DNA of 64,000 nucleotides from Caldimonas thermodepolymerans (lineage in GTDB: Bacteria; Pseudomonadota; Gammaproteobacteria; Burkholderiales; Burkholderiaceae_C). Below, in pieces: positions 55,955 to 56,179 of this stretch (position 1 is its first letter; every line of letters starts with the position of its first letter). The stretch covers positions 620,001-684,000 of the forward strand of contig NZ_CP064338.1 of NCBI RefSeq assembly GCF_015476235.1, read 5' to 3'. The notes under the pieces were generated by a model. It was not told the origin of the DNA and ran no database searches. It was given only the letters and a program-made list of their open reading frames with translations. Both the position numbers and the translations under genes were made by a program.

Positions 55955-55983
55955 GAAAAAAGCCCCAGTCGACGACTGGGGCT
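55955..55983 (-). terminator. Strong intrinsic terminator on the minus strand upstream of hemJ
   Basis: AGCCCCAGTC pairs perfectly with GACTGGGGCT (55961-55970 and 55974-55983) around a 3-nt loop. On the minus strand it is followed by six T residues (55960-55955). No annotated gene ends here in that direction. The terminator therefore belongs to a short RNA or to an attenuated hemJ leader. Confidence 0.9.
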
Positions 55984-56039
55984 GCAAAGCCTTAACGCTG
56001 TCATCACGGTAAGGCACCTGCTCAGGGAGGAAAAGCAGG
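55955..56039 (-). ncRNA. Candidate small RNA or hemJ leader attenuator
   Basis: Read on the minus strand, three stem-loops follow one another. CCTGCT/AGCAGG (56039-56034 with 56022-56017) has a loop containing CCTCCC, complementary to a ribosome-binding site. GCCTTA/TAAGGC (56015-56010 with 55994-55989) follows. Last is a 10-bp terminator stem (55983-55961) with six U residues. The region is clearly lower in GC than its surroundings. No promoter could be fixed, so the 5' end is unknown and may reach to about 56100. It could be a free sRNA or a transcription attenuator in the hemJ leader. Confidence 0.5.
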
Positions 56040-56179
56040 GAATGACGCGCCTGGCGGCGTATCATTCACATGTAACTTTACCAGAACACAGATTTCATTT
56101 CACAACCGGCGCCACGCCGGTGGGGTATGGAAAACACCAGCTTTTTCCTGCCCTTGGCTGCTGTTACAGGACGGTTCCC

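Follow-up and report, generated by a model that had tools for sequence, protein, structure and literature searches.

A small RNA of the anti-hemB family between hemJ and hemB of Caldimonas thermodepolymerans: probably a displaced relative of ErsA with a replaced stress promoter

The minus strand of the window (i.e. the whole stretch of 64,000 nucleotides that was analysed) carries a structured element between two divergent genes of heme synthesis. Is this element a leader of the gene that follows it, an antisense RNA of the gene behind it or a free RNA acting elsewhere, and how did it come to this site? An Rfam search of the window matched the element to family RF02837 (anti-hemB) with 64.1 bits against a cut-off of 49.5 (E = 1.1e-12 for the 64-kb window). 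The match spanned 55954-56041, covered the full length of the model (1-81) and was the sole family match above cut-off within the 64 kb. Model R1 (a covariance model trained on 25 sequences of the anti-hemB type, none of them a true ErsA or sX13) also matched full-length at 55954-56065, the window's own sequence being one of the 25. The window RNA belongs to an already known and described family. In B. cenocepacia J2315, anti-hemB is ncS04, a 105-nt RNA with a start mapped by dRNA-seq, a confirmed 3' end and reported binding to Hfq (PMC5688073). None of the conditions examined there (biofilm, stationary phase, starvation, glucose medium, osmotic stress, low pH, low iron) altered the ncS04 level significantly (PMC5688073), and anti-hemB is also listed in B. 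pseudomallei (PMC3521395). The new content lies in the origin and regulation of the RNA: it is probably a relative of ErsA that has been displaced and has had its stress promoter replaced. The RNA and its neighbours are:

55955-56068, minus strand: anti-hemB/ncS04-family small RNA, predicted length about 114 nt from RF02837, model R1 and the fold
55466-55894, minus strand: hemJ, ATG at 55894; TIGR00701 122.9 bits, full length, slightly below the curated 138
56180-57184, plus strand: hemB, TTG start; NF006762 515.5 bits, above cut-off

The 5' end of the RNA (about 56068) was placed from the -10 element and the mapped ncS04 start, and the 3' end is the U run. An earlier note on this DNA had placed the element between two divergent heme genes, about 60 bp before hemJ, and the family matches uphold both gene identities. 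Upstream of hemJ, its reading frame stays open across the entire RNA (55466-56065, minus strand, 199 codons), and automated gene calling could make hemJ too long in the window. Upstream of hemB, ATGGAAAACACCAGCTT (56127-56143, plus strand) recurs, as its reverse complement in aligned upstream regions, in several genomes of the same genus and may therefore be a leader or operator element of hemB.

The predicted fold contains four hairpins, the last of which is the terminator:

56040-56067, minus strand: 5' hairpin, from the fold; absent from the Rfam model
56017-56039, minus strand: core hairpin with loop UUCCUCCCU; anti-Shine-Dalgarno CCUCCC at 56030-56025
55989-56015, minus strand: third hairpin, GCCUUA...UAAGGC; 90.6% of cells paired
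55956-55983, minus strand: intrinsic terminator, 10-bp stem (55983-55961) and U run

Most of what the earlier note had read from the letters held. The strong minus-strand terminator was found (i.e. a 10-bp stem with seven G-C pairs and a 3-nt loop, then the U run), and no gene ends there, hemJ starting about 60 bp downstream and hemB being divergent. Local GC was 50-56% as compared to about 70% around the element, in line with the claimed drop, and the anti-Shine-Dalgarno word lies in the loop of the second of the four hairpins. The three stem-loops described exist, but a fourth, the 5' hairpin at 56067-56040, is also present. Folding of 55955-56070 gave a minimum free energy of -55.2 kcal/mol as compared to -33.0 ± 3.6 for shuffles (z = -6.2), a value matched by 0 of 200 shuffles.

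Pairing among relatives, for which the note had proposed a covariance search, was conserved with compensatory changes, alongside the 64.1-bit match to RF02837. For the three 3' hairpins in 30 Burkholderiales sequences, 88.9% of cells were paired (shuffles, 83.3%; one arm slid, 27-61%), and 14 pairs were changed on both sides in 51 such cells (shuffles, 5.6 and 17.3, respectively). The core hairpin was paired in 98.1% of cells, with one C-G pair compensated to U-A in 13 of the 30 sequences and a nearly invariant CCUCCCU loop. Three pairs of the third hairpin and seven of the eight pairs of the outer terminator stem were changed on both sides among relatives. The sequence of the 5' hairpin varies, yet at least 6 bp pair in 81% of 59 sequences, as compared to 25% when arms from different species were combined.

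RF02837 matched 36 of 41 genomes sampled from the window's neighbourhood (33 above cut-off) and, at E <= 1e-8, 170 of 250 genomes drawn from the order (164 above cut-off). Flanking-gene searches revealed a chain of related loci. In the window's bacterial family, the RNA is flanked by hemB and hemJ, the latter being co-directional and 25-292 bp on in all 20 examined loci for which a neighbour was found. Outside this family hemJ was never a neighbour in these searches; engB was found there instead, usually convergent. Most other Burkholderiales have the order hemB, RNA, engB (facing the RNA) and a cytochrome c4-like gene, with engB upstream in the direction of the RNA in a minority. The other gammaproteobacterial orders (in the GTDB sense) typically have polA, RNA, engB and cytochrome c4; at least one of these three genes was close by in 24 of 28 loci of other orders, all 28 found blind with the Burkholderia-derived Rfam model. 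The window RNA adjoins hemB divergently, as in most Burkholderiales loci, and engB of the window's genome is remote from it, at 883974. The polA-engB setting was found for its relatives in other orders. The heme genes beside the RNA appear to be there as a side effect of rearrangement.

The promoter differs between these groups. A scan of the window element for the sigma70 -35/-10 consensus gave nothing, and the promoter emerged only through comparison:

56075-56083, minus strand: extended -10 promoter element TGGTAAAGT; TGNTANNNT is conserved there in the family

In counts across copies, which are not phylogenetically independent, 19 of the 21 loci from the window's family had TGNTANNNT where shuffling predicts 0.66, as did 5 of 74 other Burkholderiales copies (2.4 expected). 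GGAACTT-N14-18-GTC(T/A) is the consensus of sigmaE/AlgU-type promoters. In the same kind of count, with the same dependence between copies, it was found at a near-fixed distance in 65 of the 74 Burkholderiales copies outside the window's family (1.24 expected by shuffling), in 22 of 28 copies of other orders (0.34 expected) and in a single one of the family's 21 copies (0.5 expected). The window copy lacks a sigma22/sigmaE promoter, and its genome still encodes RpoE (266 bits, above cut-off). ErsA is governed by AlgU/sigma22.

The one family copy with the sigmaE-type promoter (L029) also bears the extended -10, overlapping it, and is plausibly an intermediate. In three further copies (L092, L099 and L166), the sigmaE-type -10 overlaps an extended -10 (TGCTATCTT, TGCTAATCT) upstream of the RNA, and such overlap is a possible route for a promoter change. 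A second, separate shift to a housekeeping-type promoter is likely in B. cenocepacia (L223), because its sigmaE-type -35 is degenerate and a 105-nt ncS04 that ends at the U run would start 7 nt downstream of TATGAT; Paraburkholderia xenovorans retains GAAACTT-N17-TATCAT. Such a promoter would fit the flat expression of ncS04.

The polA-engB loci are known sites of small RNAs. ErsA sits at polA-engB in P. aeruginosa (PMC8575079), and Spot 42 (spf) of E. coli is encoded in the interval from polA to yihA (engB). In Xanthomonadaceae, polA is followed by sX13, whose authors noted that its position is like that of Spot 42 and ar7 and asked if other polA loci encode sRNAs (PMC3771888). The 274 genomes searched with RF02837 were also searched with the ErsA model (RF01719), which yielded a single true ErsA, at 121 bits and with polA upstream, besides nine matches below threshold. 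All nine adjoin polA and/or engB, and at least six (in G211, G307, G104, G184, G196 and G095) overlap RF02837 matches almost exactly. With the sX13 model, two true sX13 were recovered, each with polA upstream, as well as ten matches below threshold, three of which (in G211, G122 and G274) overlap RF02837. Model R1 recovered ErsA (E = 2e-4) and both sX13 (E = 1.6e-5 and 3e-4) at their known places, reached Spot 42 weakly and near noise at its known place (E = 0.016) and scored ar7/mmgR (RF00519) loci at E = 0.009-0.026. All of these R1 scores are partly terminator-derived, and the Spot 42 and ar7 matches are therefore not evidence of kinship. Alphaproteobacterial ar7, for which the sX13 paper states a polA-locus position, was tentatively rejected as a member of the locus family, as no polA was present within 1.5 kb of 30 RF00519 loci.

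Direct comparisons of the window RNA with these models were negative. RF01719 had no match in the window's genome at E <= 0.001, and the RNA was not among the matches at E <= 1; it is therefore taken only as a probable relative of ErsA and not as ErsA itself. The sX13 model (RF02232) had no match in the window's genome. Against the window RNA, the Spot 42 model (RF00021) scored 17.7 bits for a cut-off of 80, and RF00519 scored 20.5 bits, below 41. Relatives of the RNA resemble sX13 in their architecture, with more than one C-rich loop. A C-rich terminator loop occurs in 61 of 76 other Burkholderiales copies and 16 of 26 copies of other orders as compared to 0 of 23 in the window's family; CCCC in the middle hairpin occurs in 18 of the 26 and again in 0 of the 23. 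Only one C-rich loop, as against the three of sX13, is left in this family.

It is probable that anti-hemB, ErsA and sX13, perhaps with Spot 42, are one ancient sRNA that has kept its slot beside engB across beta- and gammaproteobacteria and was originally under an envelope-stress sigma factor. Two separate takeovers by a housekeeping-type promoter would have occurred, one in Burkholderia sensu stricto and one in the window's family, where the RNA would also have lost its other C-rich loops and come beside hemJ. The kinship with the polA/engB-locus sRNAs, as judged from synteny, promoter type and architecture, is the most likely reading. Alternatively, anti-hemB could be real and trans-acting but unrelated to ErsA and sX13, its C-rich loops and locus being convergent. 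True ErsA and sX13 have diverged in the core, match only weakly and lack the exact CCUCCCUGAGC core, and C-rich loops are known in unrelated sRNAs (PMC3771888). However, the RNAs occupy one and the same slot, in one orientation, with respect to engB and cytochrome c4, promoter type, promoter distance and C-rich terminator loops are shared, and intermediate sequences are matched by both models, which leaves convergence unlikely.

Extra copies of the RNA were also observed. One polA-engB locus (L064/L192; G211 contig 33, 13148-13886, minus strand) holds four tandem copies, within which the anti-hemB, ErsA and sX13 models each match copies. Further arrays occur in G303 (several copies) and, with two copies apiece, in G302 and G190. 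Five matches were obtained in G529, a genome of the window's family, with extra copies away from hemB (L175, L176 and L177), and G330 and G374 have tandem copies away from hemB with a strong sigmaE-type promoter (L158, L183 and L184), G330 also having a hemB-linked copy with a weak one. The window's genome contains a second RNA (L002:1501-1581; C1 1801724-1801804, plus strand) with CCUCCCUGAAC in a loop and a terminator, scoring 29.7 bits with RF02837 and 30.5 with R1. By translations read by eye, it lies about 650 bp from a transposase-like frame and adjoins an XRE-type regulator frame; it is possibly a paralogue. A weaker relative in this genome (28.2 bits; L003:1501-1586; C1 1591915-1592000, minus strand) has a CU-rich stretch and a terminator at the 3' end of a reading frame.

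Two readings tie the RNA to a heme gene. The earlier note had offered a heme-responsive attenuator of hemJ. In such a leader, transcription would start upstream and, depending on heme or iron, stop at the terminator or continue into hemJ. This fits the co-directional hemJ in all 20 loci of the window's family, but that neighbour is confined to this family. The RNA and its terminator are conserved elsewhere without hemJ, usually facing engB, and an attenuator can therefore not account for the conservation. ncS04 is a stable separate transcript, unresponsive to low iron in B. cenocepacia, and a single fold dominates with no alternative antiterminator fold seen. The neighbour context in other families led us to reject the attenuator as highly improbable, and some read-through into hemJ may occur within the window's family. 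Very little likelihood attaches to cis-antisense action on the 5' end of the hemB mRNA, as per the family name: divergent hemB adjoins the RNA in most Burkholderiales, the loop complement in the window looks like a Shine-Dalgarno ahead of an ATG in the hemB frame, and a review gives hemB as a predicted target of the Hfq-copurified sRNA Bc7 (PMC6321483), but 32 of 39 relatives have a hemB frame that closes before it reaches the RNA, so that the upstream start (i.e. the N-terminal extension, on which this reading was rejected) is not conserved, the RNA lies beside polA and not hemB in other orders, and its promoter is about 100 bp before the hemB start, so that overlap needs an unusually long hemB leader.

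The other possibility in the earlier note, a free trans-acting RNA, is supported by the Rfam family, the conserved promoter and terminator and the mapped, Hfq-binding ncS04 of B. cenocepacia. We hold with good confidence that the element is a free trans-acting anti-hemB RNA, likely an Hfq-dependent blocker of Shine-Dalgarno sites, and the betaproteobacterial member of the polA/engB-locus sRNAs, its stress promoter having been replaced in the window's family. On this proposal, its own promoter would drive the RNA away from hemB and its own terminator would end it before hemJ; it would be expressed in the window's organism and act in trans, most likely with Hfq. Pairing of the CCUCCC loop in the core hairpin with the Shine-Dalgarno regions of several mRNAs would block their translation. 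Such blocking in trans is suggested by the loop itself, the Hfq binding of ncS04, the action of ErsA, which with Hfq represses at ribosome-binding regions (algC, oprD), and the loop rule of sX13, in which C-rich loops act on G-rich target motifs. sX13 was reported to be Hfq-independent (PMC3771888), so that Hfq use is not to be assumed for every family member. The ancestor would have been an envelope-stress RNA under a sigmaE/AlgU-type promoter beside polA. In the window's family, an extended -10 would then have replaced this promoter, all C-rich loops but the first would have been lost and hemJ would have replaced engB as neighbour.

Genome-wide, 17 sites complementary to the loop with at most two mismatches were found as compared to 2 for the reversed control, an excess expected of a Shine-Dalgarno-like word. 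Few of these sites lie at plausible starts, and none supported a target in the window's genome. Porins were rejected as targets, having no unusual complementarity to the RNA.

No paper tying anti-hemB to ErsA, sX13 or the polA locus was found in a literature search that covered a minority of subscription papers. What had been described for anti-hemB/ncS04 was its family entry, its mapped transcript and its binding to Hfq, with no function assigned. A link to ErsA and sX13 would give it a testable role (i.e. envelope-stress output and blocking of ribosome-binding sites) and would answer what the sX13 authors had asked, namely if polA loci elsewhere in bacteria harbour such RNAs. The exchange of promoters would be a natural experiment on one RNA, which seems to be stress-controlled in most families and constitutive in two. 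If this kinship is true, the name 'anti-hemB' is misleading.

Among known systems, MmgR/ar7 ('suhB', RF00519) has the word UUUCCUCCCU in common with the window RNA, but in another hairpin and with no polA within 1.5 kb in 30 loci. Spot 42 (spf, RF00021) occupies the polA-yihA (engB) place of the other-order anti-hemB relatives; it differs in lacking the CCUCCC loop, in its published CRP control and in a similarity at noise level. sX13 (RF02232) is likewise a polA-locus RNA with three stems and C-rich loops, and three of its sub-threshold matches coincide with anti-hemB; unlike it, the window RNA is unmatched by RF02232 and its family has one C-rich loop, and sX13 acts without Hfq. ErsA (Pseudomon-1, RF01719) is linked through the engB-side locus of intermediates matched by both models, the sigmaE/AlgU-type promoter of most anti-hemB copies and the C-rich loops of relatives, whereas the window RNA is unmatched by RF01719, has no sigmaE-type promoter and is not beside polA/engB. 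From RF02837/ncS04, the window RNA differs in having hemJ and not engB downstream, the extended -10 promoter TGGTAAAGT and other 5' and third hairpins; it scores above the family cut-off, has a core hairpin and loop identical in kind and lies divergent from hemB with its own promoter and terminator.
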